Shown here: piece by piece, positions 1,582 through 59,100 of the stretch | Layout: the number at the start of each line of letters is the position of its first letter | Position numbering within the stretch: the first letter of the stretch is position 1 | From: Nymphaea colorata | Taxonomy: Eukaryota > Streptophyta > Magnoliopsida > Nymphaeales > Nymphaeaceae | Direction of reading: 5' to 3' | Assembly (NCBI RefSeq): GCF_008831285.2 | Contig: NC_045143.1 | Coordinates: 6,953,503-7,017,502, forward strand | Length of the DNA stretch: 64,000 nucleotides | Notes under the pieces: generated by a model | The model's database searches: none | The model's input: only the letters and a program-made list of their open reading frames with translations | What the model was told of the DNA's origin: nothing | Made by a program: the position numbers and the translations under genes

Positions 1582-1653
1582 ATGGGTGCAACCCATAACC
1601 TAGATTTTAAGAAGCAGTAATAAAAAGCAATGGGACGTGTTGAGACCATCTAC

Positions 1654-13756: not shown

Positions 13757-13832
13757 CGTGGTATCAGAGCAAGGTTTTGTTTGAGGGCTGTTTTACTGGT
13801 GAGATTAATTGGGTCAATTATATTCTGAAATT

Positions 13833-16463: not shown

Positions 16464-16516
16464 TGCAAACATTCAGTTAAGAGTCATGATTCAAGAGTCG
16501 GTAATGAGGGGGAGAT

Positions 16517-31800: not shown

Positions 31801-32328
31801 ATTTTGTTGGCCATGTATTTTTCCGTTATATTATTATCTTCTCTCTCGCTCTACCTTTATGTGAGCTCAAATTAGTGCTCAACTTTCTTTTCGCCAGTCA
31901 CATATTAGCCCCTTTGCCTATCAAGAATAGCATCTGTCTTGAAACAAAGGGATACTCATGCATGCACACATTTTTCTGAGAGAAACGAAACCAATCTATT
32001 GATTGTAACAATCTTTTCCTGAGAGCAACAAAGTCAGTTCATTGATTTTGAGAATAAGAACATCACGGAAGAATGACTAACCAAAAGTCATCTATTAAAG
32101 GCGAAACAGAGTCATAGTCAACGCCCACAGAGTAAATAAAGAGACAAAAAACAAAAACGGCTTCACACAAAACCCAAACGAATGTCATTCTCTCGAACAT
32201 AGAAAACGTGCATTGAGCAGCAGTACGGTGGCTATATATATGCTACATGCAAACACTCTTGCATGATCTACTGGTAACTCACACACAATTTCCTTTTGTT
32301 TGAGTACTTGATCATGATGATAACCGAT

Positions 32329-35300
32329 TTAGATGAATATTAAGCACACCAGTAAAACTAGAGATATGACCATTGATATAACTGATACAACATTCTTGCC
32401 CGCGTGGCTCTTCTGATCCTGGGTGCATTGATCTTTTAAGCAAATATGGGGATTGCCTTCAATTCTTTTCACGACAAAAGAAAAAAAAGGAGAAAAATGT
32501 AATGAATTAGTTCATATATCAAGGAAATAAGAAACATGGGTTAAATTGTTTCTGCCTTTGAGATGGAATCGAACCTTAACGTTAGTTTCCCGCTCCTCAC
32601 CCTTTCACGCATGAGGTCTGGAATAGGGCCAGAGAGATTGTTGCTTGACAAGTCTCTGAAATTCATTCACCACATATCTGTGACATGGAATTGATTTCCC
32701 CTAATATTGGGAGCATACTTTAGTTTAAAAATATGTACTCACATATTGACTAAATATGGCATTTCTAGCAGAAAAGGCGGCACCGAACCATGGAGATTGT
32801 TGGTGGACAAGTTCCTAAGGTAAGAGAAAACATCTTAGTAATATAGAAGTGAAGAGATAACGGCCAAAAGGGAACTGCGGTTGAAGCTAAAACATGATGT
32901 CGGTTGATAGACTTACAATGTTTTAAGCTTTGTCAGACTGAAAATGTGGCGACTAATCATACCACTCAGCCCACTGCTAGAAAGGTCCCTGCCAATGAAA
33001 TTTTCAAGCAGATTAATTGGCAGGGTGTTATCAAGCCAACCTTGTTCCAAAGACAGTAAGTGAATTCTCACAGGCCCACTGTTTGCGATCCATCACAGGT
33101 CAAGCCATCCCAGGGAAAAGGTAGACATGGATCAGCAATCCAGTTTTTCTTCAGTTGATAGTACTCCTTCATGGCTGTGACGGCCATAACTGAAATGGGA
33201 GTTGAAAACTTGAGGAAAATGAATTTCTTTTTCGGACAAGAATAAAAACAGGGAAATGAAGAACAGAGCCATCAGTTGGAAATATAAACCGTCTGACAAA
33301 CAAAATCTCCAGTGATACCCAACACTTGAAAAATAAATGTGACATAATGCATTTTATATCTCATTCTGTTGGTGAAATATGTTTCTTCTGTTCATTTTGT
33401 TACTGGCAATAGTATGGGTTTGCATCTTGGAAGCCAAATTACCTAAAATGATTGCTTTGTGTTACATCTAAATGTATGCAAGCAAGAACTTGGACTTGAG
33501 GCCTCCAATTATGCAGTGCCCTATATGATTATGCTCTAGCTATTTCATGAACTTTTGGACTTTCCTCTGCACTTGCTCAACATATCAAAACTGGTCGAGG
33601 AAAATTGCTCTTAATTTTTTATACTCTCATGGTTATCTTGTCCTGAGTTCAAAAAGTATCAGCTCAACATAATATGTATGCATTCAATATGTAAGAGCTG
33701 CAATGTAATTGTTTTGTGTCTCCGTTTCTAACTCTAGAATGTTAGGAGCATGCTGCTCAAGAATTGAAGTTAGCACTTATCCTTGAGTGCTGCAGCGATG
33801 GACATAAGTGTGCTGGAAGGATAAATTGCTCAACTCGTATAACCTTAAAGTTCGAGCAATTTTTTTGGTTTACGCTTTTGCACTTGTAAAGGTCCGCCTG
33901 ACCCTGTTCTACCATTTCTTACCCTTTGCTCTTAGACAAGCACGCAAACATATTATATCCCGAGGAAGAAGAAGCAATTAAAACAAAGAAAAGTGTCAAA
34001 GACAGTCTACCGTCTCCTTCTTCTGTTGCAGAGCCGTTGAACGTAACCACTTTGTAGATCTCGAAGGAGTTCAGGACGGCGCCCTCGTCTGAAGCATTCG
34101 CCGACCGAATGGAGAACGAATATTCGGAGGCATTATTTAGAGGTGTTGTTGAGTAGAGAACATTGGTGTGGAGGTAGAAAATCGAGGCATCACCCCAGTC
34201 CTCGCCGTTCATCTGAACCTTCATTGTCCTCGATCCTCCGGCGGTCGGTGGCACTACATCAGCAAACTCCAAGAAAAGATGGAACCTGTCGTCAACTCCC
34301 CCGGTCCAGTTGACCCGGATTTCATCCGGCGAGTAGACAGCAGTCTGCATTACGACCGAGGGCAACCCAAACATTAGGTTAGCAGACTCCGTCACCGGTA
34401 AACTTGTGATGTAGGGGGTCCCATAACCATCGTAGTTTGATTCCCATATGCGATCCAAGCGGTCGGTCGGGTACCTGAATTCGGTAATTAGATGATGCTC
34501 GAGAAAAACGATAAAGGATCGAATAGTTTCAAATATTTTAACCAAAGACACGTGAGGTGCATGGAGTAAAACCTAAATTTTGATTCTTAAACTACTACTT
34601 TTAATTTTTAAAGTAGAATATTATAGGGAACCAAAATTCTTTGTAGCCAAAAGTCCTTAAAACCTGATGGTTTTGTCATATGGAGAAAAGGACATTCATG
34701 TGCTAACCATATACATTGTTCGGTTTGTTTCTTCTTTTTGTAGCCGCTTCTACACAGAACCATGTAGGGACACATGTATTTATCAAATCTAAATTGATGC
34801 AGCTTTCATTTAAGATTTCTACTTCAGTAACTACGCTAGATATTGTTCATTAGAAATGAGTAAGCTAAGAAAATCTCACCAACTTGGTTGCTTGGCCCCA
34901 AGGTCTACCCGCCTGAAAGTTTTCAAAGCAAGGTAAAGCGAGCTATTGGCAGGTGCATACATGTTTTGCGGGAGTGGTCGGAGCTTCAAAGAAGAAATGA
35001 AAGGTGTTCCATGTCCTGTATTCACGAGGCACACATATAAAAAGCGTGCCTCTGCTTGGACGACCAACTCCGTCCAGAACGGCTTATTGTTGTCGGTCAA
35101 GTTCACGGTTTCCCAGACGTTCACACCAAGATGGAGATCGAAACTTGGCGGTGTGTCGAGGCCGTCATAATTGCCGTACAGGAAGGTAGCCCGAACGATA
35201 TACTTTGTGTCAACAGTTGCCGGCAGCTGATAGCAGTTTCTTTTGTAGTTTGGGAAGAACCTCACCGTGAAGTATACTTTGTTGGAGCCTTTCCCGATGC

Positions 35301-36708
35301 TAGTGGGATCTATCAGACCATTCATTCCGCTGTCAATGAATCCGTCGTCGGACACGTAGGTGAGGTTGTTCAACTGATTAATGTAAGTGGCAGTGTCGTT
35401 GAGTCCACAATCGATGCTGATAAACCCTGCCACGCAATTGTGCACGTCGGAATAAGTGGGAATTATATGTCCGAACTAATGATTTTTTGGGTATTTCTCA
35501 CTTGTTACGGAACTTAAGAAAACGAACTATTTGTACTCTCAATTTTAATGTCTACTTAATACCGTTTAAACGACCAGTTGAAAGGGAGCCGAAGCAAATC
35601 CGGCGAGGAGGTTCAAGTCTTTCTCTCTCTCTCACCTAGCGCCAGCGGCCAGCTGCTGACGAGTTCCCGTTCTCCTGTATTTCTACTTATTTGCAGTTTC
35701 TGAAAGTTTTATCGGTTAATTTGAATCTTTTGAAATTCACGGCAGCTAGGATCCCAGCCCCGATGCCGGTCGCGTTCTCCTCCTTCATGAATGCGTAATC
35801 TTACCTTTCCTTTTATATTTTGTTCCTTGGTGACAAAGTCAAGATCAACTGTTCTCAGGCCGAGCGTGCCTTTTTAAGTCTAAGTTGTAAAATCAAGTTC
35901 TTCCCTGTAACTTGTTTTGACAAATTTAGAAACCAATAGATGAAACAGTACATGCTTCTCTGCAAGCTCTAAGGAAATTCAATGAAAGACGGCGTGAACA
36001 CAAGCTCTTACAGCATGGAACAATGACTCTTTAAAATAGAAAAAAGAGATTAATGAGAGCCCAAGGGGATCACTCTCCATGACTGCCAGTAAATTCCTAA
36101 AATTTTGTTTCTCAATCAGAGTAAAAAAAAAAAAAGAAAACCATAGGATGCCTCGGGGAGTTACTTAGTCTGGAGGCAGCAAGCTTCGCCTTGCAATCCA
36201 GCTTGTGAACCGTAATTCAGCTGGTCTGCAAGCTTCTGCATGCTGTACACTCGCCATCATCGTCAAGCATACGAAGATCTAAAGAAAATAAAAAATCTAC
36301 AGGGAAGAACAAAAGCAACTGCAAAGTAAAAGTTTTCCATCGTCGGTGAAGGTCCTGTTCTTCCTCTAACTCCATGATTATGAGAGAATGGTAGAACCAG
36401 TGACAAAGATTCTTGACCTTTTTCTGTTTGGGATTTTACTCCCGGAAACTGCGCGTGGACCGAAAGAATCAATTGTTACGAAAAATTGCAAGACTAATTC
36501 TCCTGCTTTTAACAAATTGCAGGCTAATTCTCCTGCTTTTATGGCATGTACACGAACGCTTTGGTTCGACCTGTTACGCTGAACCTCTTGAGGCAAAGAA
36601 AGACTCTTTGAGTTAAAGAAGAAAGAGAGCATGTATACCTCTTTGTGCTCCTGCTAGTAGGAAGGTGGCCGCACAGCAGAAGAGAAAGAAGAAACCATGT
36701 GCATCCAT
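32329..36708 (-). CDS. Gene 3: kinase-less malectin-like LRR protein with C-terminal hydrophobic (GPI-type) tail
   Basis: Eight exons: 36639-36708, 34880-35426, 34011-34474, 33072-33189, 32917-32988, 32743-32814, 32575-32655, 32329-32464. All junctions are GT/AG, phases agree, and the spliced length (1560 nt) gives 519 residues. Exon 1 is a signal peptide, MDAHGFFFLFCCAAT..., cleaved near AGAQRG. Exons 2-3 form the malectin-like domain (FISIDCGL, RNCYQLPA, FDRIW replaced by LDRIW, SANASDEGAVLNSFE). Exon 4 holds the LRR cap NWIADPCLP, and exons 5-7 the LRRs. Exon 8 reads NPHIC, a short hydrophilic stretch ending SHAGKN, about 20 hydrophobic residues and then a TAA. There is no basic stop-transfer segment and no kinase exon downstream. 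A GPI-anchor signal is the best reading; a tail-anchored membrane protein is the alternative. Likely role: cell-surface ligand binding or co-receptor function, inferred from the family. Confidence 0.85.
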
Positions 36709-37100
36709 TATCTTCTCTGCAACTTAGTTTCCAATCCCTCCCAAGAAGACCAGAGCCTCCGTATATCCCGTAATTCGTCTCCCTTTCCGCAATATGTATG
36801 GAGAGAGAGCTCAAGTTAAGTCAATGCTGGTAATTGACTCGCACCGCTGGGCTGTCATGCGGTGGGTCCCACTCAAAACTAAAGCCTTCACTTAGTCTTG
36901 ATGGCTGGGTTGTGGGTAAAGAATTGGTCAAGATGCCTCGGATGCCGTCCATCATCGGAGATGGATGGTGCACAGGATTGCTTTAAAGAACACTCAGAAC
37001 TGTCCAAGTCGGTCTTAGCGAACGGAGTGAAGCATGTCTTGACTTGGTCCAAATGTATCTTGGGACAATGGTACAGCTGGTGACGTCTTTCAAGTGAAGG
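36709..37100 (-). promoter_or_regulatory. Proximal 5' flank of gene 3, with motifs shared with genes 2 and 4
   Basis: TTGACTC (36834-36840), preceded by TGCTGGTAA, aligns with TGCTGGTGG-TTGACTC at the gene 2 flank (19672-19686). CTTGACTTGGTCC (37038-37050) recurs exactly in the gene 4 flank (44277-44289). TGACGTC is at 37081-37087. The TTGAC cores fit WRKY-factor W boxes (TTGAC plus C/T). No TATA box was assigned. Confidence 0.45.
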
Positions 37101-39634
37101 AAATTTCTCTTTCGAGGGCCAACTTAGCCTTAACTTCTGAAAAGTGCTTCACATAGTCCCATCATTTACTGTTTACCTCAAGCTAAGCTTTCAAAGAAAA
37201 GTGATACTGCATATATAGATGCCATGCACAGAACTTGAAAATGAAAATTGGTGCCGTACCTAGTTGCCTGCACAACCAATGTGTTATAAGTAAGTGGAGT
37301 TCGAGTTATAGCAATGCAATAATCTCTTTTAATCTGGGTGATTTTTTTTTGGCAATTTTTAAACTTACAAAAGGAAAAAAAGTCAGGCCAAATGGAAAGG
37401 TGGTAAACTAACTTAGATTTGGTCTATTGAGTCAGACCTTATACAGCTTGACTCGATTTCGGTAAGTTATGAGTCAAGTCAAGCGTAAGCTCTTGACTTA
37501 GCTCGAGTGTAGCTCTAATTGTAGATCGCTTCCTTTTTAAACGACCATAAATATTCTAATCATTCCGACATCAAAGAACCGCGTTGGACCATGTCGAGGA
37601 GACGATGACTGATGAGTTGTATTGCCTTTCCAGATCAGATCATAAATACCTTCCGTTCGGGGCCCAACTTTTGCATGTGGAATATGATATCTACAACTGT
37701 ACATCATGCCCTCAATTTGGTTATACACAGGGATATATTTATTAACATTCGAAATATTTTTTTATATCAAACTAAAAAGAAAGTCACAAAGTTGACGGAG
37801 TCTATTTTTAATTGCCCAAAAGAAATCGTCATGTCACAAAGTTGACTAGGTCTATAAATTATGATCTGACAGTTGATCGTACACGACAACTTGGCCTAGT
37901 GATAAAAGCCTGAATTACTGCAACACAGCGTAACTTTATCTTCCTCATTCCTATGCACAATCCAGCAATTTTAATACTGAAAGAAAAATAATTTGATGCA
38001 TGGAAACATTCATGAGATCTGCAATTGCAAATCACGGCGTCAATTTGGCCATACAAAAGGATATATTTATGCCGTTTGAAATATTTTTTATCTCAAATTG
38101 AAAGAAGGTCACAAAATTCACTAACTACTTTTTAATAATTGTCCAGAAGGAATCAAATCACAAAGTTGAATCCATGAAATCATTATTGTAGGACGGACAC
38201 CGGATTCTCTATCCGTACTGACCAGAACTACAAATATATGTTAATCAGTACTAATTCAGGATTCAAACTTGTAAGGTGTCTAGGACGGGTGACAACCAGC
38301 TCGAGATTGAGCTTGACTTGTTAAAGCTCGGCTCTTGAACGAGTTTAAGCTGAGTCATTTGCTAAACGAGTCCAGCTCGAGTTCATTAGTCGACTCATTC
38401 AAATAATCGAATTGAGTTCGAGCTCAACATGTAACTGATGAGTTGAACTTGAACTTTAAACAAGTCGATATATTCAAACGAGTTTATGAGTTTGTCATGC
38501 CTTAATCGAGTCGAACTTAAGTTTGTCCAGCCTTAATCAAGTCGACCTTGAGCTCAACAAGTAACAATGAATATCAATTCTATTCAAACGAGTTTATCGA
38601 ACCTTAATCGAGTCTAGATCTAGCTCAACATGTAATTGTCGAATCGAGTTGCTTCCGTCGAGCTATTCTCTAGCTCAAACCGAATCGAGCTCGAGGTTTC
38701 ATTAGTCAAGCCGAGCTCAAGCTTACTGAACTTGAGCTTGACTTGGCTCATGTTCACCTGTTTATAGTCATGAAATTATTGGTTGTTTGATGATCTCCAA
38801 ACGAATCACCAAAATTATACCTATTATTTTTTGGCTAATAAAGATGAGGGCTTAACCCTTTTACCTTTGGGTGAGCAGGAAGTTAACAACCTATTGTTTA
38901 AAAAAACCCAAAAGACTCTTTTATTTCTCTTGCCTCTAAAGTTTAAGACTGTATGAGAACTAGGTGAAATATGACACACCTTTTAACTCAAGGGTCATGA
39001 TGAATCCAAAAGAATAAGACATACAACAATCAAATAGTAACATGATTTCTACGTGCCCTCCATGCCTGCCCAACAAGCTATACTATGCCTCTTGAGGGCA
39101 GGCACCACTTTTCCTTGACAGGAATCGCCAAAGAGCGGCTTATACCATGCGTCTACGCTGTTGCACTTTGCAAGCATTAGTCACATAAGAACTAAAGCAG
39201 ATACGGTGAGGGAGAGCGCTGCTGTGAGGTGGCATTGTACGAGAAATTAAAGAAGTGCAATTACAAAAGGTTTCACCACCTTTATGTGGCAGAATTAAAA
39301 GTGCAATTACACTTAAACTTGAAAATGATTAAAGTCCACAAAAACCTGTTTAACTGAATATATAATACGATCCATAAGAATTAAACACTAAAATGCTTGA
39401 AATCTCATAGGTCATAGAGTTCTCAACCACACAATTTACTAGCGCCCTGTTGTCTGCGATATGGTTCTCGTTGACGTTCTAATAAGAGCTCGGCTTCACT
39501 GTTCAGGTCTCGTATACAAAGAAACAAACTTGTCCATCCGCAGCAAATGGGGAAAAATAACCAATACATGTCTTCTAAGCACACAGTTCAAGGAATCAAG
39601 TCACCCTGTTTTCTTGTACATATTGACAACCAAT
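37101..39634. other. Intergenic stretch between genes 3 and 4
   Basis: No gene is seen. It includes a diverged direct repeat (about 37730-37850 against 38050-38170, roughly 318 bp apart, sharing GGATATATTTAT, GAAATATTTTT and GTCACAAA words). A 470-bp low-complexity block (38290-38760) is rich in GAGCTCGAG and TCGAGTT words. Confidence 0.55.
38290..38760. repeat. Degenerate GAGCTCGAG-rich repeat
   Basis: Short words around GAGCTCGAG, AGCTCGA and AATCGAGT recur irregularly on both strands. Similar words appear at 62765-62810 and 63110-63270 and in the ends of the hAT-like element at 58790-59029. This is probably decayed transposon-derived sequence common in plant genomes. Confidence 0.6.
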
Positions 39635-42600
39635 TCAGGACGATAGACAGCTTGCCAAAAGAAGATATATCGCCACTGAAATTGCAGTTACAGTGTAACT
39701 GTTCTTGAGACCAGTTGCAGAGTTACTGCCTTTGCTGCCCGCCGTAGCGCTACTGCTACTGCTACTGTTGCTGCTCTCTTGTTGGTTGCATCCATCTTGT
39801 TGGCAAATTAGAGGATTGTTGTCAATCCTTTAAATGGTGAAAAATGAAAAAGTTAGTCCGACCTTCTGGACGAAAAATATGTGTAGTATTTTTTGAGCTT
39901 CTTAGATTGCGACAAACCTTAACATGACTTCTCCATTCTTCACTTTTTCCTGCAAGCCATTGGGGATCGATCCAGAGAGACTGTTGCTTGATAGATCTCT
40001 GAATTGAAGCAATAATTGCCATGTAAAAAGAATTACTGATATCCACTACTGAACCAGCACCTTAATTTGAACCAGTACTCACATGTTGATCAAATTGGGC
40101 ATCTCCTGTAGGAATGGTGGCACTGGTCCCTGCAGGTTGTTCCTTGATAAGTTCCTGAAATAAGATGAGGAACAGAAAAAGCGATCATGTTTGTGTCGAT
40201 GTGGTTGCTACCCAGAAATTTAGGTTCGCAATCTAAATATCAAATTCAGTCATGGACTCACAATGTCTTAAGCTCAGTCAGTTTAGAAATATGGTCGACG
40301 ATTTCGCCACTTAGCCCACCATTAGAAAGATCCCTGAAAATGAATTTTCCTCAAATATAAATGAGTTGAGAGGGAAATTTCATACGAATCATGTTCTGAA
40401 GGGACAAAGTTCTTACAAAGTCACTATCCATGGTCTCGAATCATTGCCACAGGTCAAGCCATCCCATGGAGAATTGTCAGGAAGACAAGGATCACCAATC
40501 CAATTTCTCTTTAGTTGATAGTACTCTTTGATGGCCGTGATAGCAGTAACTGCCCAAAAGAGTTTGAAAATTTCCAAAAGTGGAAGAATTAAAAAGTAAG
40601 AACCATCAATCAAAACTTTGAACTAGACATCGTTATGTGAGCGAAATTGCCAAAGCTACCCGACAAGTCCACATACCATCAGAGAGAATAAAAAGAAACT
40701 TCCATACAGATTGTGGGGTGTGCAAAATTGTAAATACATTGGAACCTTATTTCCGTCTGAATTTCGGGCCTCCATACAGAGCCTAAAATACTGCTAGGCT
40801 GCTCAATTCTACCGACCTGAGCTGCACTCCAGTTCTGATCTAGGCAAGTTGTGAAATGAGGTAAACTTCATGATGGTGAATAGTCTGAAACTATTTACTT
40901 CACTAATAAAATATGGTTGTCGAGTCTTCTAGTTTATTTTCCCTAGTCAAATGGAACCGGATGATCTTCAATGGTAACTTTTCAAAGTTTTTTTGGATTC
41001 TGCAGTGCAACTGGCCCAAGCTTAGAAGCAGAAGGGTATTCTGAAAGGTACAAGAGGAAGGCTTTCCTGCGAAAATTGTGAGAGCCACTATGACTTCAAT
41101 TTATTCCTTCGGTTCGACCCCTGTTTCTGGAGGACGTACATTTTTTGTAGTTCTTCCACGACGAATATGATATTGATGATGGTCATAATGATGAAGCAAA
41201 AGAATGGGAAAAAAGGGAAACAAGAAAATGGAAAGAAAAGCAAAGAGGAGAATAGGCTAGTTAATAGACTATCAGAAAAAAGAGCTAGTTAATAAGCGTC
41301 GTTGCACACACCATCTCCGGCATCAGTAGTAGAGCCACTGAGAGTCAGGACTTCGTACACCTCGAAGGAGTTGAGGACGGCGCCCTCGTCCGAATCATTG
41401 GCCGATTGTATGGAGAATGTAAACTGGGGGGCGCTTGAGGGAGAGGTTGAGTATAGAATACTGGGCGAGAGGTTTGAAACGTTGACCTCACCCCAGTATT
41501 GCCCATTCTCGAGAACCTGCATTTGCCTCTGTGTACCAGACAACGTCGGCAATATGTCCGCGAATTCCAAGAAAACATAGAAGCTACGGTCGGCTCCCCC
41601 AAGCCAGCTGATGTTTATTCCACCAAGCTGGTAGACAGCAGTCTGCATTACAACAGAGGGCAACGCAAAGAATGGGCTCCTTTCACTCTCCACTATCTTC
41701 TCACTGGTGTTGTAGGGTGTCCCGTATGAATCGTAGTCCGGCGTCCATATACGATCGAAGCGGTCATCTGGGTACCTGCGATGGGGTATTTGGCAGTTGC
41801 AGTTTCAGTCAACTCCTCAAACAACGATGCCAGAATTTGAAAATTCAAAACGACGCAGCATTTTAGTTTTTGCGTGAGAAACTGATATTGACATCATCAA
41901 TTTTAGCAAGGCAAGACTACAGAAAGGGCAACAGGCGTTACAAGCCAAAAAGGACTTCAACCAGTTATCTCAGAGACTAAATTGTAAGAAGGAAAATTGA
42001 GGATGTTCGGTAAACTCTGTAGAAGAACAAGAAAAGAAAAGAAATGCACCTCACGTATCCAGTGGCTCCAAGATTTACTCGTCGGAAAGTTGTTAGTGCA
42101 ACCAAGGCAGAGCTATTGGCAGGTGCGTAGACGTCATCAGTCAGTGGCCGGAGCTTCAAATAAGAAATGAAAGGCGTTCCGCCTCCCGTTTCGACAAGAC
42201 ATAGATGGGTATAAGATGCTTCTGCTTGCACAATGATCTCGGACCTATATTGATGAGTTACGTTGTCCAATTTTATGTTGTCCCACAAGTCCACGCCCAG
42301 GTACAAGTCGAAACTTGGGGGAGTGTTGAGCCCGTCATAATTGCCATACATGAACGCCACTCGAATGAAGTACCTTGCCCCAATTGTAGCCGGAAAATAG
42401 TAACAGTTTCTTGTGTAATTTGGGAATGCTCTCACCGTCTGGTATCTCTTGTTCGTCTCCTTTAACTCAGGATCAACTTGCCTGTTGACTCCAGTGTCTA
42501 CAAACCCATCATCAGACACGTATGTGAGATTGTCATTCTCATCAACATAACTTGGACTCTCAGTCAGCCCGCAGTCGATGCTTATAAACCCTGCCACATA

Positions 42601-44025
42601 TAATTTTCGAAGGTATTAGAGGCGTCAAGAATTTTCTCTATCAAAAGAAAACGAGCAAGAGCACACCTGCTTCTTAGTATTTATTTAACCCCCTTCTTTC
42701 ACCGCCAGCACACACACACAAGGAAGAGAGAGAGAGAGAGAGAGAGAGAACATAATGGGAATTCATTAACACAATTGAATGATGAATAGTCACCAAGAAA
42801 CAAAAAGCAAAAAATCAGCAAAAAACAAAAAAATAAATAATAAATAAATAAGCCACAAAACAAAGAAAAGAAGAAAGAATGATGAAAAGAAAGATCGAAA
42901 AACTAATATGTGGCTAGGCGAAGTGCAAGATGCATATCAGCCTTTACCAAGTAGTTAAACAGAGTCTGCTGATGCTGCTGTATCTCTCAACATCCTATTG
43001 CGCTACTGTCAAATCCGCTACCAATAATTGATAAGCCATGGCCGTTAGATATATTACAACTCCAGAAGCGGGTCGTCCCCCCGGGTTCCACCACCAACCA
43101 AGTGAGATATATTACAACTCCAAACTCTTGCTCTTTCTCTTCATCGAATGTAGACAAATAATGGTACACTCTTTTCTTTTGTGGGTTGAAGGACGACCTG
43201 TTTGATTTTAAAACTAATGGCGCTTCCAATAAAACTTATGAAATGCATTTACTTGCCAGATCAGAAAAAGTTATTGGCTCCTCGTGGACGGCTTGGAGAG
43301 AGAGAAAAGGAAATATTTTGTTTAGAAAAAAAAAATACAGAATGGTGATGATTTAATGAACCTCAGTAACTGCTGATTGCTTCAACTTGGGGTTCAGAAC
43401 AGGCAACAACAGGGAACACAAACGGGGAGCTGAAGGAAGCTCCTTCCTGGAATGGAAGCTGCAAGGTGTAGGTTGAACTTGACTCCTGAATTACAATTCA
43501 GCAGGTGGTGTAGGCATCTACTGCAAACAAATGGCTAAGCATTACACCCAGAAACAAATTTTCTCCACTGGCGCTCCCCATCCCTCATTTTTTGAGAAGA
43601 TTATAGCCCTTACTAAACTGGACTGTAGGCTTCTACAGGCTCGGAAAGATTCCTGGTGGTTGTTTCTTCTTGCAGAATGCATGGAAACGAAGTTCAGATT
43701 CTGCAACGGAGCCGCTAAAGCTCATAAACTAGTAGAAACCAAGACCAACCCCCAGTTTTCGGAACCAGGAAAAACATTTCGTTTCTTTCTGATCTTTTGG
43801 AAACCATTTTCGTAGTTGATTCTTCACCTGCTAATTGCCTGAATTCATGTGTACTTGGTAAACTTTTACATATATCACTGAGTAGACATAGTAGAATATG
43901 TGATTCCAACATGGCTACACCATGCAGAAGAAAGGAGACAGAAAGTCCTTACCTGTCTGTGCTCCGACGAGGAAGAAAAGGGCAGCACTGCAGAGGAGAA
44001 AGAAAAGACCACGCCGACCCATCAT
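39635..44025 (-). CDS. Gene 4: kinase-less malectin-like LRR protein with GPI-type tail
   Basis: With the nearest 5' module the exons are 43953-44025, 42050-42590, 41312-41775, 40417-40549, 40262-40333, 40083-40154, 39918-39998, 39635-39827. Phases fit and the 1629-nt total gives 542 residues. Signal peptide MMGRRGLFFLLCSAALFFLV ends near GAQTG. The malectin-like domain has FISIDCGL, RNCYYFPA, FDRIWTPD, VVMQTAVY and SANDSDEGAVLNSFE. The LRR cap is NWIGDPCLP and three LRR exons follow. Exon 8 encodes NPLIC, a Ser/Asn-rich linker, small residues (GSNSATG) fit for a GPI attachment site, and a 20-residue hydrophobic end YTVTAISVAIYLLLASCLSS, then TGA. No kinase exon lies downstream before gene 3. 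Two further copies of exons 1-2 stand upstream (47011-47083 with 45110-45650; 50078-50150 with 48167-48707), so transcription may start at any of three promoters. Confidence 0.86.
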
Positions 44026-44898
44026 CACCTCCGATCGACGCCTCAATTGTCGCAAGAAAACAGAATGAAGCACTTCGCTTTCTTATGTATGGACTAGAGG
44101 TGGAGAGGTCAAGATCTCCACACCAAGCAAACGGAAGATGACCGGAATTCAAAAGCAGCTAAGTCCACTACAAGTCTTTTGCAGATGGTTGCCCCTTGAT
44201 GGCAGTCTTCAATTGATGATTCCCACAGCATTGAAGCGATCTGTGAAGTTGACTCATTCTGCAGGAAGCTGCATGCCTTGACTTGGTCCTACCACTTTAA
44301 ATGACTACGTGTAATGACACTGCATAGACGTTGGGTTAACAGTTGGCCAAGTCTAATCCTTTCATCTTGCAATTTAGATTTTAAAAGTTCTCGTTCACTA
44401 GAAATCGTAAAATTTACCAATTTAGTGAGAAGCAAGGCCTGAAGCAGGGGCGAACAAACGAGACTAAATTATAAATTTATATTGAAAAAATATTTTCTAA
44501 AACTAAGGGACCAGGCTCAAAGGATGACCCACTCACTCACTTGAGTGAGGGGGCCAAGAAAAGAGGAAGGGCACCTGACCGTTTTTGAATAAAAGAAAGA
44601 GGGAACGAGAGTACCCTTCTCGAACTGAACTCTCTTGACACCAGCAAGAGGGGCAACGTGAGTATGTGCCAACTGTGAAGGAAGGAAGGAAGAAAGAGAA
44701 GGAAGAAAGAGAAGGAAGAACAAGGCAGTGGGCTTGTGCTCAGTATGAGTACATGTGCAGGGAAAGGAAATGAAGAAAACAAGAGGAATGTTGATGATCT
44801 CTTTTGTAGTTTTTGTAGTTTTTTTTTCATGTGTTCATATTTTGTTAGGAAGATTTATGCTATTTTTTGCAAGAAGAATAACACATATTGATGTCATT
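44026..44898 (-). promoter_or_regulatory. Gene 4 promoter region in unit 1 (also at about 47084-47955 and 50151-50999)
   Basis: About 870 bp upstream of each exon-1 copy are repeated with the exons. The region holds TTGACTCATT (44249-44258 in unit 1) and CTTGACTTGGTCC (44277-44289), shared with the flanks of genes 2 and 3. In unit 3 the first site reads TTGGCTCATT, so its W-box core is lost while units 1 and 2 keep it. Confidence 0.5.
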
Positions 44899-45109
44899 GA
44901 AAATTCAAAACGACGCAGCATTTTAGTTTTTGCGTGAGAAACTGATATTGACATCATCAATTTTAGCAAGGCAAGACTACAGAAAGGGCAACAGGCGTTA
45001 CAAGCCAAAAAGGACTTCAACCAGTTATCTCAGAGACTAAATTGTAAGAAGGAAAATTGAGGATGTTCGGTAAACTCTGTAGAAGAACAAGAAAAGAAAA
45101 GAAATGCAC

Positions 45110-47083
45110 CTCACGTATCCAGTGGCTCCAAGATTTACTCGTCGGAAAGTTGTTAGTGCAACCAAGGCAGAGCTATTGGCAGGTGCGTAGACGTCATCAG
45201 TCAGTGGCCGGAGCTTCAAATAAGAAATGAAAGGCGTTCCGCCTCCCGTTTCGACAAGACATAGATGGGTATAAGATGCTTCTGCTTGCACAATGATCTC
45301 GGACCTATATTGATGAGTTACGTTGTCCAATTTTATGTTGTTCCACAAGTCCACGCCCAGGTACAAGTCGAAACTTGGGGGAGTGTTGAGCCCGTCATAA
45401 TTGCCATACATGAACGCCGCTCGAATGAAGTACCTTGCCCCAATTGTAGCCGGAAAATAGTAACAGTTTCTTGTGTAATTTGGGAATGCTCTCACCGTCT
45501 GGTATCTCTTGTTCGTCTCCTTTAACTCAGGATCAACTTGCCTGTTGACTCCAGTGTCTACAAACCCATCATCAGACACGTATGTGAGATTGTCATTCTC
45601 ATCAACATAACTTGGACTCTCAGTCAGCCCGCAGTCGATGCTTATAAACCCTGCCACATATAATTTTCGAAGGTATTAGAGGCGTCAAGAATTTTCTCTA
45701 TCAAAAGAAAACGAGCAAGAGCACACCTGCTTCTTAGTATTTATTTAACCCCCTTCTTTCACCGCCAGCACACACACACAAGGAAGCGAGAGAGAGAGAG
45801 AGAGAGAGAACATAATGGGAATTCATTAACACAATTGAATGATGAATAGTCACCAAGAAACAAAAAGCAAAAAATCAGCAAAAAACAAAAAAATAAATAA
45901 TAAATAAATAAGCCACAAAACAAAGAAAAGAAGAAAGAATGATGAAAAGAAAGATCGAAAAACTAATATGTGGCTAGGCGAAGTGCAAGATGCATATCAG
46001 CCTTTACCAAGTAGTTAAACAGAGTCTGCTGATGCTGCTGTATCTCTCAACATCCTATTGCGCTACTGTCAAATCCGCTACCAATAATTGATAAGCCATG
46101 GCCGTTAGATATATTACAACTCCAGAAGCGGGTCGTCCCCCGGGTTCCACCACCAACCAAGTGAGATATATTACAACTCCAAACTCTTGCTCTTTCTCTT
46201 CATCGAATGTAGACAAATAATGGTACACTCTTTTCTTTTGTGGGTTGAAGGACGACCTGTTTGATTTTAAAACTAATGGCGCTTCCAATAAAACTTATGA
46301 AATGCATTTACTTGCCAGATCAGAAAAAGTTATTGGCTCCTCGTGGACGGCTTGGAGAGAGAGAAAAGGAAATATTTTGTTTAGAAAAAAAAAATACAGA
46401 ATGGTGATGATTTAATGAACCTCAGTAACTGCTGATTGCTTCAACTTGGGGTTCAGAACAGGCAACAACAGGGAACACAAACGGGGAGCTGAAGGAAGCT
46501 CCTTCCTGGAATGGAAGCTGCAAGGTGTAGGTTGAACTTGACTCCTGAATTACAATTCAGCAGGTGGTGTAGGCATCTACTGCAAACAAATGGCTAAGCA
46601 TTACACCCAGAAACAAATTTTCTCCACTGGCGCTCCCCATCCCTCATTTTTTGAGAAGATTATAGCCCTTACTAAACTGGACTGTAGGCTTCTACAGGCT
46701 CGGAAAGATTCCTGGTGGTTGTTTCTTCTTGCAGAATGCATGGAAACGAAGTTCAGATTCTGCAACGGAGCCGCTAAAGCTCATAAACTAGTAGAAACCA
46801 AGACCAACCCCAGTTTTCGGAACCAGGAAAAACATTTCGTTTCTTTCTGATCTTTTGGAAACCATTTTCGTAGTTGATTCTTCACCTGCTAATTGCCTGA
46901 ATTCATGTGTACTTGGTAAACTTTTACATATATCACTGAGTAGACATAGTAGAATATGTGATTCCAACATGGCTACACCATGCAGAAGAAAGGAGACAGA
47001 AAGTCCTTACCTGTCTGTGCTCCGACGAGGAAGAAAAGGGCAGCACTGCAGAGGAGAAAGAAAAGACCACGCCGACCCATCAT
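45110..47083 (-). CDS. Extra copy of gene 4 exons 1-2 (unit 2)
   Basis: Exon 1 is 47011-47083 (73 nt, same signal peptide as unit 1) and exon 2 is 45110-45650 (541 nt). Both have intact splice sites and open frames. Relative to unit 1 the malectin half has two replacements, Val to Ala in R(V/A)AFMYGNYDG and Asp to Asn in LW(D/N)NIKL, which it shares with unit 3. Used alone it lacks exon 3 onward. A transcript from here must either skip exons 1-2 of unit 1 and splice to exon 3 at 41775, or encode a truncated protein ending in intron 2. Confidence 0.7.
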
Positions 47084-48166
47084 CACCTCCGATCGACGCC
47101 TCAATTGTCGCAAGAAAACAGAATGAAGCACTTCGCTTTCTTATGTATGGACTAGAGGTGGAGAGGTCAAGATCTCCACACCAAGCAAACGGAAGATGAC
47201 CGGAATTCAAAAGCAGCTAAGTCCACTACAAGTCTTTTGCAGATGGTTGCCCCTTGATGGCAGTCTTCAATTGATGATTCCCACAGCATTGAAGCGATCT
47301 GTGAAGTTGACTCATTCTGCAGGAAGCTGCATGCCTTGACTTGGTCCTACCACTTTAAATGACTACGTGTAATGACACTGCATAGACGTTGGGTTAACAG
47401 TTGGCCAAGTCTAATCCTTTCATCTTGCAATTTAGATTTTAAAAGTTCTCGTTCACTAGAAATCGTAAAATTTACCAATTTAGTGAGAAGCAAGGCCTGA
47501 AGCAGGGGCGAACAAACGAGACTAAATTATAAATTTATATTGAAAAAATATTTTCTAAAACTAAGGGACCAGGCTCAAAGGATGACCCACTCACTCACTT
47601 GAGTGAGGGGGCCAAGAAAAGAGGAAGGGCACCTGACCGTTTTTGAATAAAAGAAAGAGGGAACGAGAGTACCCTTCTCGAACTGAACTCTCTTGACACC
47701 AGCAAGAGGGGCAACGTGAGTATGTGCCAACTGTGAAGGAAGGAAGGAAGAAAGAGAAGGAAGAAAGAGAAGGAAGAACAAGGCAGTGGGCTTGTGCTCA
47801 GTATGAGTACATGTGCAGGGAAAGGAAATGAAGAAAACAAGAGGAATGTTGATGATCTCTTTTGTAGTTTTTGTAGTTTTTTTTCATGTGTTCATATTTT
47901 GTTAGGAAGATTTATGCTATTTTTTGCAAGAAGAATAACACATATTGATGTCATTGAAAATTCAAAACGACGCAGCATTTTAGTTTTTGCGTGAGAAACT
48001 GATATTGACATCATCAATTTTAGCAAGGCAAGACTACAGAAAGGGCAACAGGCGTTACAAGCCAAAAAGGACTTCAACCAGTTATCTCAGAGACTAAATT
48101 GTAAGAAGGAAAATTGAGGATGTTCGGTAAACTCTGTAGAAGAACAAGAAAAGAAAAGAAATGCAC

Positions 48167-50150
48167 CTCACGTATCCAGTGGCTCCAAGATTTACTCGTC
48201 GGAAAGTTGTTAGTGCAACCAAGGCAGAGCTATTGGCAGGTGCGTAGACGTCATCAGTCAGTGGCCGGAGCTTCAAATAAGAAATGAAAGGCGTTCCGCC
48301 TCCCGTTTCGACAAGACATAGATGGGTATAAGATGCTTCTGCTTGCACAATGATCTCGGACCTATATTGATGAGTTACGTTGTCCAATTTTATGTTGTTC
48401 CACAAGTCCACGCCCAGGTACAAGTCGAAACTTGGGGGAGTGTTGAGCCCGTCATAATTGCCATACATGAACGCCGCTCGAATGAAGTACCTTGCCCCAA
48501 TTGTAGCCGGAAAATAGTAACAGTTTCTTGTGTAATTTGGGAATGCTCTCACCGTCTGGTATCTCTTGTTCGTCTCCTTTAACTCAGGATCAACTTGCCT
48601 GTTGACTCCAGTGTCTACAAACCCATCATCAGACACGTATGTGAGATTGTCATTCTCATCAACATAACTTGGACTCTCAGTCAGCCCGCAGTCGATGCTT
48701 ATAAACCCTGCCACATATAATTTTCGAAGGTATTAGAGGCGTCAAGAATTTTCTCTATCAAAAGAAAACGAGCAAGAGCACACCTGCTTCTTAGTATTTA
48801 TTTAACCCCCTTCTTTCACCGCCAGCACACACACACAAGGAAGAGAGAGAGAGAGAGAGAGAACATAATGGGAATTCATTAACACAATTGAATGATGAAT
48901 AGTCACCAAGAAACAAAAAGCAAAAAATCAGCAAAAACCAAAAAATAAATAATAAATAAATAAGCCACAAAACAAAGAAAAGAAGAAAGAATGATGAAAA
49001 GAAAGATCGAAAAACTAATATGTGGCTAGGCGAAGTGCAAGATGCATATCAGCCTTTACCAAGTAGTTAAACAGAGTCTGCTGATGCTGCTGTATCTCTC
49101 AACATCCTATTGCGCTACTGTCAAATCCGCTACCAATGATTGATAAGCCATGGCCGTTAGATATATTACAACTCCAGAAGCGGGTCGTCCCCCCGGGTTC
49201 CACCACCAACCAAGTGAGATATATTACAACTCCAAACTCTTGCTCTTTCTCTTCATCGAATGTAGACAAATAATGGTACACTCTTTTCTTTTGTGGGTTG
49301 AAGGACGACCTGTTTGATTTTAAAACTAATGGCGCTTCCAATAAAACTTATGAAATGCATTTACTTGCCAGATCAGAAAAAGTTATTGGCTCCTCGTGGA
49401 CGGCTTGGAGAGAGAGAAAAGGAAATATTTTGTTTAGAAAAAAAAAATACAGAATGGTGATGATTTAATGAACCTCAGTAACTGCTGATTGCTTCAACTT
49501 GGGGTTCAGAACAGGCAACAACAGGGAACACAAACGGGGAGCTGAAGGAAGCTCCTTCGTGGATTGGAAGCTGCAAGGTGTAGGTTGAACTTGACTCGTG
49601 AATTACAATTCAGCAGGTGATTTAGGCGTCTACCGCAAATACATGGCTAAGCATTACACCCAGAAAACAAATTTTCTCCACTGGCGCTCCCCATCCCTCA
49701 TTTTTTGAGAAGATTATAGCCCTTACTAACCTTACTAAACTGGACTGCAGGCTTCTACAGGCTCAGGAAGATTCCTGGTGGTTGTCTCTTCTTGCAGAAT
49801 GCATGGAAACGAAGTTCAGATTCTGCAACGGAGCCGCTAAAGCTCATAAACTAGTAGAAACCAAAACAAACCCCCAGTTTTCGGAACCAGGAAAAACATT
49901 TCGTTTCTTTCTGATCTTTTGGAAACCATTTTCGTAGTTGATTCTTCACCTGCTAATTGCCTGAATTCATGTGTACTTGGTAAACTTTTACATATATCAC
50001 TGAGTAGACATAGTAGAATATGTGATTCCAACATGGCTACACCATGAAGAAGAAGCAAGGAGACAGAACGTCCTTACCTGTCTGTGCTCCGACGAGGAAG
50101 AAAAGGGCAGCACTGCGGAGGAGAAAGAAAAGACCACGCCGACCCATCAT
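48167..50150 (-). CDS. Extra copy of gene 4 exons 1-2 (unit 3)
   Basis: Exon 1 is 50078-50150 and exon 2 is 48167-48707. Exon 2 encodes the same protein as unit 2. Exon 1 differs by one residue in the signal peptide (Cys to Arg in the LLCSAAL stretch, from TGC to CGC), placing a charge in the hydrophobic core, which may weaken secretion. Splice sites are intact. As the outermost unit it holds the ancestral distal promoter edge. Confidence 0.68.
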
Positions 50151-51006
50151 CACCTCCGATCGACGCCTCAATTGTCGCAAGAAAACAGAATGAAGCACTT
50201 CGCTTTCTTATGTACGGACTAGAGGTGGAGAGATCAAGATCTCCACACCAAGCAAACGGAAGATGACCAGAATTCAAAAGCAGCTAAGTCCACTACAAGT
50301 CTTTTGCAGATGGTTGCCCCTTGATGGCAGTCTTCAATTGATGATTCCCACAGCATTGAAGCGATCTGGCAAGTTGGCTCATTCTGCAGGAAGCTGCATG
50401 CCTTGACTTGGTCCTACCACTTTAAATGACTACGTGTAATGACACTGCATAGACGTTGGGTTAACAGTTGGCCAAGTCTAATCCTTTCATCTTGCAATTT
50501 AGATTTTAAAAGTTCTCGTTCACTAGAAATCGTAAAATTTACCAATTTAGTGAGAAGCAAGGCCTGAAGCATGGGCGAACAAACGAGACTAAATTATACA
50601 TTTATATTGAAAAAATATTTTCTAAAACTAAGGGACCAGGCTCAAGGAGGACCCACTCACTCACTTGAGTGAGGGGGCCGAGAAAAGAGGAAGGGCACCT
50701 GACCGTTTTTGAATAAAAGAAAGAGGGAACGAGAGTACCCTTCTCGAACTGAACTCTCGCGACACCAGCAAGAGGGGCAACGTGAGTATGTGCCAACTGT
50801 GAAGGATGGAAGGAAGAAAGAGAAGGAAGAACAAGGCAGTGGGCTTGTGCTCAGTATGAGTACATGTGCAGGGAAAGGAAATGAAGAAAACAAGAGGAAT
50901 GTTGATGATCTCTTTTGTAGTTTTTTTTCATGTGTTCATATTTTGTTAGGATGATTTATGCTATTTTTTGCAAGAAGAATAACACATATTGATGTCATTG
51001 TACAGT

Positions 51007-54223: not shown

Positions 54224-54707
54224 TTATCTTGCTGTCGGGTAGATGGATGAATCAATGTCCGATTGGGCATGGCCTTCAAAGGACTGGGAAGCAAAAACTC
54301 CTTCTCTTATTGAACCCTGGCCTTCAATCTCCATGGCAGCCTTCAATCCATTCACAACTTCAGTCATGGTAGGCCTTCTAATGGCTGCCTCTTCACCACA
54401 TGCGAGGGCTATCTCTACAACCTTCCATATAGAGTTGATGTTGTATTGGCCCTGGAGCCTAGGGTCTACCAAGCTGGCGACATCTCCCCTCATAATTTTG
54501 GGGGTAACCCATTGGAGGATATGAACTCGCTGTGCTTCTAGTGTTAATATGGCACGGTGGCCTGTGATCAGCTCGAGAAGAACCATCCCAAAGCCATATA
54601 CATCACTCTTTTCTGTAAGTTTGTTTGTGTTGTAATACCTGAAATGAAAAATGAAGATGATAAACAAGAGTACGAAAGAGATAGAGGGAGAGACAGAGAC
54701 AGAGGGG

Positions 54708-54743
<36 letters not shown>

Positions 54744-56139
54744 TATTCCAGCTACAGTTCCAGCTCTGCCATGTTTTGCTGCATAGTTAGCTTAATTCAC
54801 AGACGAGAAATCGAACTCTGATTAGGATAAATTGAACAACTGCTGGTCTGCAGCAGTCAGTATGCATTAACTTGCAGCATACATATCAGTACCTATCACC
54901 GCAAATTTTGTGAGGTTAACCTCTGTTAGTATGCCTTAACATCTAACTGATGAGCAACTCTATGTACAAGTTGTAATTCCTTTTTCTGAACCGTCAGAAG
55001 CACAGCTCATGCACAATAATAACATGCAGAATATGTGGAAACAACCATGCTTTTAACTAATAGGTACAAGTACAACCATATTGTTAACTAGTGAATGCAA
55101 CCAGAAAGAGATTTTCTTCCTCAAAAAACAAAAATGTTTGCATACTCAGGGTCCACATATCCAGGGGTTCCAGCGACTGTAGTTGTCATATGAGTAATGT
55201 CGTCGGTTGCACAGATCTTTGACAGTCCAAAATCTGCAAGTTTCGCTTCTGAATTTCCATTGAGAAGGATGTTGCTTGTCTTCACATCCCTATGTATGAT
55301 TGGCAGCCTACATCCTGAATGCAGGTATTCCAGCCCTGAATCCCACATAACAATTAATTTCCGAAATGCATGATGCTTATTCATGAAAAGAAATATGGAA
55401 CCGCTTTAATATGAGTGTGAACCTTTGGCAGAGCTTAAAGCAATTTTCAGCCTTTGTTTCCAACTAAGCACCACTGAGCTCCCGGAATCCTCTGCATGAA
55501 AGGATACAAGTACTGGAGATTAGCAGTCAGCTAATTTCTCTAATTTCTTTCACCTGATCCACTTTCTTAAGTAGGACTTTCAAGGGGAACTTGTGGTTGC
55601 TTTGAAAAGAAAATGCTGTAAACTAAACCAAACAAATGATGATCATCTAGCGTTGATACCTGATAATAGCTCCCTCAAGTTTCCTCCAGACATATATTCA
55701 TAAAGTAGTATCATATTATCTCCTTCTTCACAGAATCCATGGAAAGAGACCAGGTACTTGTGATGAACTTTTGTCAACAACTTAATCTGCAAGCGTTGAA
55801 ACAAGGTTGGCTGATGAGGATGTCATGTATAACGCAGCAAGTTCTTTTGCTTCAAATTGAATTCTAGAAACAAACCTCTGCAGCAAATTCTTTGCAGCTT
55901 TGCACTGTTGTTCTGGTCAAAGTCTTGACTGCCACTTCACTGCCATCTATTAGCTTTCCATAAAACACGGTTCCAGATCCTCCTTTCCCGATCATCCTCT
56001 GGAAGTTATTAGTTATCCTCATTATGTCCTTGTATGTGAACAAATAGCTACTTTCTAATGCCAAATGGGTGTGTGTCTTTCCATTCACATTGTCGTTATC
56101 TGGCACAGAAGCAGAGATGGTTAACAGTCATGTGGTATG

Positions 56140-56171
<32 letters not shown>

Positions 56172-59100
56172 CTTAGAGAAGAATGTCGAGACTCATACTA
56201 CTGCTGGTGGTTGAACCTTGGTTCCGTCTCATATTATTCTTTCTCTGAAGGATCGAAGCTAGAATGATTCCAAGAATGAATATGAATAGAGTTGGAGCAC
56301 AAATGGAGAGCACTAGCAAAATAACATTGTGTTTCTTCTTGCAGGTTCCATCCAGACAAAGTTGGGTATAATTGTCCAGCCTGTGAGCAAGAAAACTCAT
56401 TTCTTAGACAAGGATTGACGATTAAGTAGCTGTTCATTGTTTAGGATTAATAATTTAAACCAGACCTTACTGAAAGTGATCCATCATCCATCCTCTGTTT
56501 GAGGGTACTTGGAATTGGGCCAGAAAGGTGATTACCTGATAAATCTCTGGATGCCCAGTTTTGTGTGACAATTCCATTACGCAAAAGAAGGAGAGTTAGT
56601 ATCAATCCCATGCATTAAAAAAAAAATCTAACTCTTGTGTATGTGTTAATGATGATTGAGAGATTAAAATTTTGTACCTCTTCATTATTCCTGCTTTATG
56701 CATTCATAAAGTGTAGATTCCTAATAAAGATAAAGCGAGTCCAATTCTTGTTTGTCTGAATTTTTTCCTACTTTTGGTTTCTTGAGCAGTCCGTGACGTC
56801 TGTCATGGTAGTATCAACTACTATCAAAGAACATCCGAAATTGAGAAGTACAGATTTCTTCTCAAGAGATATGCACCTAGTTGTCTCTAAGAAGTCAGTC
56901 ATATAAAGGATGGCTCATCATTGCTTCAAACTGGGGAAGTTGAAGTTCAAATGACAGGCAATCCGAAGGCAAAACTGTTGATCCAGGATTTCATTTTTCG
57001 AGAATATTACTTTTGATGATCACGTTGGAGGAGAATTGTTAAGCATACTTACAGCGTCATTAAACTTGTCATTTTTCCCAGGAAATCAGGTATGGGCCCT
57101 TCCAAGTCATTTCCCGACAAGTTCCTGCAATATCAGAAGATCAGAAATAATTTCACCTTAACAGGATCATTTGTCCATAGATTAGAAGGAAAGGTATACT
57201 CACAATGAATGAATTGATGCAAATTGATAGATATAATTGGATATGGAGCCATTTAAGCGACTATACGAGAGATCCCTGCGTAGTAATTAACATTGAACTA
57301 ATTGCGACTGTTGACAGTAAAAGGTTCACAAGAAAGACAAATCAGTGTTGCTTACAAGGAAATGATTTTTGGTGATGAAGGATTTTCATAGCTGCAGCCC
57401 AATCCATCCCAAGGGTAGCCCTGGGGAAGACATGGATCAGAATTCCAGTTTTTCTTCAAGTTGTAATGGTCTCTAGTTCCCCTGATTGCGTCAACTGCAA
57501 CGAAGATGTTTCAAGACCAACGGTGGCCAGCATCAACAAGCTTGTTATACGAAAACCAGAAATGATTCTAATTTCTATGGAATAGAGTTCCTAAAGACCC
57601 ACCATCCTGCTCGTTGGTCGCAGAGCCAGTGACATCACGTGCTTCGTAGACCTCAAGAGCATTTATAATTGGCCCACGAGTAGAAGTCTGTGTAACATTT
57701 ATTGAGAACGAATAGCTTACCAGAGTGTCAGGTGAAGTGCTGTATACGGTGTTCGAAGCAAGATATCTAAGAACTAAAGAATCTAACCAAGGTTGTCCAT
57801 TCTTGGTGATTGTGAGATTTCTTGTTTGGTTTCCTTTGTAGTCTATCAGCTCCGCAAAATGGAAGAAAGCATAGATGCGAGCACTGGGTTTCGTGTTCCA
57901 TTTGATTGTGATGGGACCGGGTGAGGTCACAGCAGTCTGCATAATGGCAGTGGGCCGTCCAAATCTCTTGGTAGAGTCTTCCTTTACTTCCAGATTTGTG
58001 ATAAGTGGAGTCCCATATAGATTGTGGTCTGGTGTCCATATACGATCATAGGGATCAGCAGGAAACCTGTGTGCCATAGTTGAACCTTTATTTTTCAAAA
58101 TTTTCAGAAGAAAATGGATGAATTTTATTTCGTTATTTACAACAAACAGAAATCGGAGTCACCTTCCACGAAGGGCAACAATGCAAGTTGCAAACAGAAT
58201 GAAGACGCAAGCAAGTTTTTTTTTTTTTTTTTTTAGAAGTGTTTTTCTTTTGGTTTTTTGATATTTCTGTAAGGAACGTGAGGTATTTTGGCATCTTTTG
58301 TCTGTAAATGTATAAGTTTCAGTTAAGCACTCCAATGTATAGCGAAGTAGGAACCATCTTCAGTTTCAGAATGGGAGGCAATTTTGCGTGTAATTAAAAC
58401 ACGTGCAACGGCCGTGACTGTGGACCAGGTTCATCTGGACTACTCCAAACCCGAAGTCAAGGTTAGCTCAGTCCACCCCAGGCCTGCTAGGTGAAAATTT
58501 AAAAAATATAATTTTAAGATAATAATATATAACATAATTAATCATAATAAAATGTATAATTATATGTAATATGTATATTAAAAAAATATTATTAAAAATA
58601 AGTTATTGGACCTGGACCAACAACTTGTCAGCGAGCCTAGTGCTTAATATTCAGGCTCACCTCACTTCCTTGAGGAAGTCAGCCCATATATTCTAAGCTG
58701 GGTTTAATTTACTAGACTTTCTAAAGGAACCTTGGACTAAAAACTATGGAGCATTTGAAGTCCTTGGCTGAATCCAGCGGAGTCACAGCTAGGCCTGGGC
58801 ATCGGGTCGGCCGGATGTCCAAAACTCGAGCTCGAGCCAGGCTCAGTTACAATAAAAAATATTTTTTAAAATTTAAAATATTTTTTGAATATAAAATATA
58901 TTAAAAATAATAAAATATATATTATTAATTAAAGATAATATTTAAAATCTATCGGGCCAAATCAGGTACCCATCCGTCAACCCGGGCCTGTTTTCTTGGG
59001 TATGGGCCTGGGCCCGATGCCCACCTCTAGTGATGGCCAGTATTGGTGAATTTGCTGATACTTACCATATCTCCTGACTCTCAATTTCTAAAATTTTTGT

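Follow-up and report, generated by a model that had tools for sequence, protein, structure and literature searches.

Kinase-less proteins that combine a malectin-like domain with leucine-rich repeats (LRRs) are already known, as in RLP4, which belongs to clade XIII of the receptor-like proteins (RLPs). NtRLP4 is reported to consist of a signal peptide, a malectin-like domain, LRRs and a membrane segment, and to bind SOBIR1 (PMC13143284), and clade XIII of poplar and Arabidopsis is outlined as the clade of RLPs with a malectin-like domain (MLD) and LRRs (PMC7783096). In SYMRK, which exemplifies subfamily I of the LRR receptor-like kinases (LRR-RLKs; MLD-LRR-kinase), the malectin domain is described as being cleaved, with cleavage depending on a GDPC motif (PMC6024595). 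Truncated LRR-RLKs are stated to be common (PMC7318236), and a THESEUS1 allele expressing a kinase-less form is summarised as hypermorphic (PMC5853656). Here, we describe two genes, G3 and G4, within a window of 64,000 nucleotides (the whole stretch of DNA analysed; C6:6953503-7017502, C6 being contig NC_045143.1) of the 407.8 Mb Nymphaea colorata assembly; positions given without a contig name are those of the window. Sequence comparisons indicate that the two genes are real and probably encode working receptor-like proteins that lost the kinase through a traceable frameshift and whose ectodomain was recombined.

G3 (32329..36708, minus strand) was modelled with eight exons (36708-36639, 35426-34880, 34474-34011, 33189-33072, 32988-32917, 32814-32743, 32655-32575 and 32464-32329) encoding 519 amino acids, and G4 (39635..44025, minus strand) with eight exons (44025-43953, 42590-42050, 41775-41312, 40549-40417, 40333-40262, 40154-40083, 39998-39918 and 39827-39635) encoding 542. 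All 14 introns, seven in each gene, are bounded by GT and AG, the donor of G4 exon 2 having been picked by analogy with gene 5 (G5). The exon phases equal those of the first eight exons of G5, an intact 13-exon malectin-LRR-kinase receptor of a different sub-clade (54224..60529, minus strand, 873 amino acids), in which Pfam recovers malectin, LRR and kinase, i.e., the full receptor-kinase layout. Both G3 and G4 comprise a signal peptide (judged by eye), a malectin-like domain (Pfam Malectin_like, E 7.5e-80 in G3 and 3.9e-82 in G4), a GDPC-type linker (GDPC in G4, ADPC in G3), three LRR exons with Pfam LRR matches, and a terminal tail exon; no Pfam kinase was found in either. Their spliced frames are open throughout, with no lesion apart from the kinase loss. 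Exon 8 of G3 (32329..32464, minus strand) contains the end of the LRRs, the motif KSHAGKN and a 20-residue hydrophobic tail before a TAA stop at 32331-32329, while that of G4 (39635..39827, minus strand) contains a Ser/Gly/Ala-rich linker and a 19-residue, moderately hydrophobic tail before a TGA stop at 39637-39635. The original prediction of a signal peptide, malectin-like domain, LRR exons and correct phases in the two genes is thus borne out by the models and Pfam, and the two exon-8 stops, predicted to follow about 20 hydrophobic residues, do lie there, behind 19-20 mostly hydrophobic ones.

In their signal peptide, malectin-like domain, GDPC-type linker, three LRR exons and G5 phases, G3 and G4 share the layout of LRR-RLK subfamily I, but unlike its members they have no stop-transfer segment, cytosolic part or kinase. 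With NtRLP4 and clade XIII they share, as far as the published descriptions of domain layout go, a malectin-like and LRR ectodomain without a kinase; however, NtRLP4 is reported to have a membrane segment and clade XIII to form a superclade of its own in poplar, whereas G3 and G4 end at the helix and sit inside a local clade with the kinase-bearing paralogues of their own array. A tblastn search with three proteins found no credible kinase trace downstream of either gene, and a more sensitive search with kinase pieces of G5 and of the array gene A5 gave nothing credible behind G4 (39634-36709) or G3 (32328-19520), the best E values being 0.096 and 0.27. Splicing round the exon-8 stop and kinase remnants were set aside, as no credible kinase sequence occurs in these two intervals. 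The contrast drawn earlier between genes 3 and 4 without a kinase and gene 5 with one accordingly agrees with both Pfam and the downstream searches.

The kinase-less set is larger than the adjacent pair first noticed. The pair is real, but it forms a trio with gene 1 (G1), because the 3' half of G1, just outside the window, carries the same kind of tail. Exons 1-3 of G1 lie at 1652..4214 (minus strand) and exons 4-8 at C6:6949494-6948628; its last exon ends in a G3-like tail, and the gene is now a pseudogene with a TAG in exon 3. The tails of G1 and G3 share the motif KSH.GKN, and exons 4-8 of the two genes very likely derive from one tail-type ancestor.

The origin of the tail can be read from the kinase-bearing relatives. 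In A1, A2, A3i, A5 and A6, the exon-8 helix continues into basic codons of the IKRRKQ type, followed by a GT donor. Two anchors chosen by eye in exon 8 of each gene are 60, 60, 60, 63 and 63 nt apart in these five genes, respectively, and 70, 67 and 64 nt apart in G1, G3 and G4, so that the latter three are all +1 modulo 3. The stop falls at an equivalent place in all three, 48, 48 and 45 nt past the first helix anchor in G1, G3 and G4, and the ancestral stop-transfer codons are still recognisable in the +1 frame behind it. Judged by anchor distances and by alignment with the five kinase-bearing exons, the stop-transfer remnant of G3 spans approximately 32296..32328 (minus strand); in G4, a remnant of the stop-transfer segment and splice donor, located by alignment, spans approximately 39595..39634 (minus strand). 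The change of frame lies close to where the transmembrane helix ends, and through the stop at this place both the basic stop-transfer segment and the kinase are lost.

A single shared insertion behind the frameshift in G1, G3 and G4 is likely, although not proven by the sequences; this view rests mainly on the common stop and frameshift and not on trees alone. Among seven genes, G3 is the best match to the stop region of G4, without an internal gap (1 of 2000 shuffles scored as high). Several results weigh against a single loss. The G3 stop region gives a slightly higher score with the kinase-type A1 (34.5) than with G4 (33.5), and the G1 and G4 stop regions match each other poorly (a score reached by 41 of 2000 shuffles). 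A clade of G1, G3 and G4 is not resolved in rooted trees of exons 4-7 (p 0.225 in the approximately unbiased (AU) test), and the unrooted tree of exons 4-8 with introns supports this group at 84/91 only. In exons 4-7, moreover, G4 is synonymously nearer to the kinase genes than to G3 (synonymous divergence, dS, of 0.57-0.58 to A2, A5 and A6, versus 1.85 for G3 and 1.49 for G1), a pattern which requires gene conversion, uneven rates or two losses.

These genes belong to a local array, which was examined over C6:6863501-7127500 (the window plus C6:6863501-6953500 and C6:7017501-7127500), the one malectin-like cluster of the genome in which kinase loss was assessed. At least 128 matches to the malectin-like family were found in the genome, with 121 of 222 candidates scored. 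A genome search with G3 exon 3 gave 39 matches: nine genes (G3 included) with at least 53% identity and one short fragment with 59% identity, all within C6:6.865-6.996 Mb, and 29 others with no more than 41% identity. The array comprises the kinase-bearing genes A1, A2, A5 and A6, an inverted 3' half termed A3i, and G1-G4 of the window; A4 is probably the 5' half belonging to A3i. The A genes were placed exon by exon, and the kinase end of A1 extends beyond the examined stretch.

The malectin half and the LRR-tail half of the kinase-less genes give conflicting trees. In exon 2, A5, G1, G2 and G3 group together (100/100) and a clade of G1, G3 and G4 is rejected (AU p 0.009). Exon 3 also rejects this clade (p 0.003) and places G4 with A1, A2 and A4 (95/98); a group of A5, A6, G1, G2 and G3 is not recovered in exon 3, yet it is not rejected either (p 0.277). 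Conversely, a group of A5, A6, G1 and G3 is rejected by exons 4-8 with introns (p 0.0003) and by exons 4-7 (p 0.0004). As the tested groups were chosen after earlier trees, these p-values are somewhat optimistic. The conflict indicates that the two halves have different histories, with a switch between exons 3 and 4; G1, G3 and G4 are mosaics of a malectin half and an LRR-tail half. The rejection of the G1, G3 and G4 clade by both malectin exons, together with the synonymous proximity of G4 to the kinase genes and the stop-region scores, could also be explained if the kinase was lost twice independently, once in the lineage of G1 and G3 and once in G4. We regard this explanation as unlikely, given that all three genes share the place of the stop and the +1 shift, that G3 is the best, gapless match of the G4 stop region, and that exons 4-8 reject the grouping of G1 and G3 with A5 and A6.

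The kinase-less genes also bear signs of selective constraint. Over exons 4-8, the ratio of nonsynonymous to synonymous substitution (dN/dS) is 0.32 between G1 and G3 (148 codons), 0.20 between G3 and G4 (153 codons) and 0.23 between G1 and G4 (148 codons), and the proportion of nonsynonymous differences equalled or exceeded that of synonymous differences in 0 of 2000 codon bootstraps for each pair. Neutral simulations, run at rates that fit the G3-G4 distance and assuming that the kinase loss predates the split of these two genes, seldom kept exons 4-8 open (0.2-3.6% of 2000 runs): at 0.3 changes per site per lineage in 3.55% of runs for G3 and 1.30% for G4, and at 0.4-0.8 changes in 0.35-1.15% and 0.20-0.55%, respectively. 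The purifying selection on exons 4-8 suggests that G3 and G4 are likely working genes, in keeping with the earlier claim that they lost the kinase and were otherwise kept, for which the intact models and the lack of a downstream kinase also speak. On the opposite side, the tail exon is only mildly constrained (dN/dS about 0.37 for G1-G3 and 0.52 for G3-G4 over 43-44 codons), gene conversion with kinase genes could mimic purifying selection, and G1 later died. That G3 and G4 are themselves truncated, decaying copies, with the tail a leftover membrane helix, seems improbable to us: the death of G1 (stop in exon 3) and of gene 2 (G2; broken frames and lost exons), the degeneration of a related fragment on contig C14 and the accident-like nature of a frameshift kinase loss would fit such decay, but the uninterrupted frames of 519 and 542 codons with their intact splice sites, the dN/dS of 0.20-0.32 and the rarity of open neutral runs do not.

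What the tail does is a separate question. The 19-20-residue hydrophobic segment lies at the extreme C-terminus of G3 and G4, and, as originally noted, no basic stop-transfer follows it: no basic residues stand behind the helix in G1, G3 or G4. A signal peptide, recognised by eye, and a C-terminal hydrophobic tail without stop-transfer charges are features of glycosylphosphatidylinositol (GPI)-anchored proteins, and a GPI anchor on G3 and G4 is plausible from sequence. A simple omega-site rule passes all three tails (SHA in G3, NAS in G1 and five triplets in G4). Among ten kinase-type controls, none passes uncut, but five of nine pass once the helix is cut at approximately the same place (the tenth, B1, was left uncut, its motif not matching the pattern); the rule does not discriminate once the helix is cut, and it was discarded as too weak to serve as GPI evidence. 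The Kyte-Doolittle mean of the most hydrophobic 17 residues is 2.76 in G1, 3.27 in G3 and 2.13 in G4 (1.83 for the last 17 residues of G4), compared with 2.68-3.18 in the ten kinase-type exon-8 helices. The G3 tail matches an ordinary membrane helix in hydrophobicity, which tells against a GPI signal in that protein, and it may equally be a short membrane helix. G4 falls below the range, and its milder tail and Ser/Gly/Ala-rich linker make it the better GPI candidate. Thus, of the GPI-like ending proposed originally, the tail and the missing charges stand, while the cut controls and the helix-like G3 tail weaken the rest.

An alternative is that the tail is a true single-pass helix without a cytosolic end, the proteins being RLP4-like transmembrane RLPs that use an adaptor kinase such as SOBIR1. 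The G3 tail, at the top of the kinase-type range, and the reported binding of SOBIR1 by NtRLP4, likewise a malectin-LRR RLP with a membrane segment (PMC13143284), make this explanation possible; however, the lack of basic residues after the helix in all three genes, a stop several residues short of where kinase-type helices end, and the only moderately hydrophobic G4 tail behind its Ser/Gly/Ala-rich linker leave it doubtful in our view.

The account that we favour, and consider moderately probable as a whole, joins kinase loss by frameshift, retained constraint and a mosaic ectodomain with a GPI tail and a co-receptor or decoy role. A small frameshift insertion at the end of the transmembrane helix would have created the stop, with loss of the stop-transfer segment and kinase. 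Since no basic stop-transfer remains, we infer that signalling GPI attachment is the most likely role of the tail, more clearly in G4 than in G3. The G1, G3 and G4 proteins might then share their class of ligand with those kinase-bearing neighbours whose malectin domains resemble theirs (the A5 type for G1 and G3) and act as co-receptors or competitive decoys for these neighbours. Gene 5-type receptors had been proposed as the partners, which is probably wrong: G5 is only 45% identical to G3 and 50% to G4 in exon 2, and 39% and 37% in exon 3, while exon 2 of the kinase-bearing A5, about 75-80 kb from G3, falls in the same well-supported clade as that of G1 and G3. Because exon 2 of G1 and G3 groups with A5 and G2 and not with G5, G5 is not an obvious partner; with malectin exons of another clade, it was set aside as first choice, and A5-type receptors are indicated for G3 instead.

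A co-receptor role was originally likened to that of the LORELEI/LLG proteins, GPI-anchored surface co-receptors for malectin-like kinases. This comparison is an analogy only, as the ectodomains differ: at E <= 0.001, Pfam found only malectin-like and LRR families in G3 and G4, and no LORELEI-type cysteine-rich domain. The LYM/CEBiP GPI proteins are reviewed as kinase-less members of a receptor-kinase family that sit on the outer surface and are proposed to act with LysM kinases (PMC6207691). G3 and G4 resemble them, as far as the review outlines them, as kinase-less surface relatives of a receptor-kinase family, their GPI anchor being putative; the review, however, describes LysM domains as joined independently to GPI or kinase parts, whereas the tail of G3 and G4 is traced to a frameshifted transmembrane exon. 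No GPI-anchored malectin-LRR protein is reported in the titles and abstract openings listed for the open-licence literature searched, which is weak evidence of absence. The novel elements here are the tail, an origin by frameshift that can be traced, and the shuffling. The old stop-transfer codons can still be seen, and the locus offers a concrete, sequence-readable route, by a small indel, from a receptor kinase to a kinase-less surface protein; should the tail act as a GPI signal, the locus would also show a simple route to the GPI-type co-receptors used beside plant receptor kinases. Because the kinase-less genes and their kinase-bearing neighbours have similar malectin domains, a decoy or co-receptor role can be tested directly. 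A bolder and rather unlikely extension is that one small frameshift made the helix a GPI signal, and with it a receptor kinase a GPI-anchored co-receptor or decoy, and that recombination in or near intron 3 later combined the LRR-tail cassette with various malectin domains, giving each kinase receptor type a possible kinase-less match.

The 5' part of G4 is present three times. A tandem block at 41837..51000 (minus strand) holds three copies of a unit of approximately 3.06 kb with the G4 upstream region, exon 1 and exon 2; ignoring gaps, copies 1 and 2 are 99.90% identical, 1 and 3 98.81%, and 2 and 3 98.88%, and all copies of exon 2 are open. The block stems either from a recent triplication, which would provide three promoters, or from an artefact of the assembly.

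A genome search with G3 exon 8, in which all 15 candidates were scored, gave 14 matches: G3, G1, the dead C14 fragment, five kinase-type array genes and six loci on contig C1 matched by this exon; it missed G4 and is thus blind to G4-like tails. The C14 fragment (C14:8466423-8465856, minus strand) is G3-like over exons 5-8, with 79% DNA identity to G3 and a stop in exon 7, and illustrates decay in this type of gene.

G2 (10137..19512, minus strand) is a kinase-type pseudogene with broken frames; no match to exons 6-8 was found in it, and its kinase reads HRE at 11239-11231 (minus strand) versus HRD in G5, which we take to be the catalytic motif. A chimeric origin of G2 was dropped: exon 3 groups with A6 (92/89 and 93/91) and exons 4-5 with A2, A5 and A6 (90/90), all of these supports being below star level, so that G2 is more simply a decayed kinase-type gene. 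Further along the array, exons 4 onward of A3i (C6:6883017-6887310, plus strand) lie on the opposite strand, adjoining exons 2-3 of A4, an arrangement that may reflect an inversion which split one gene. Inspection of the translated frames by eye showed Copia-like retrotransposon coding sequences at 13809-16463, where the insertion interrupts G2 between exons 3 and 4, and at 23552-27536.

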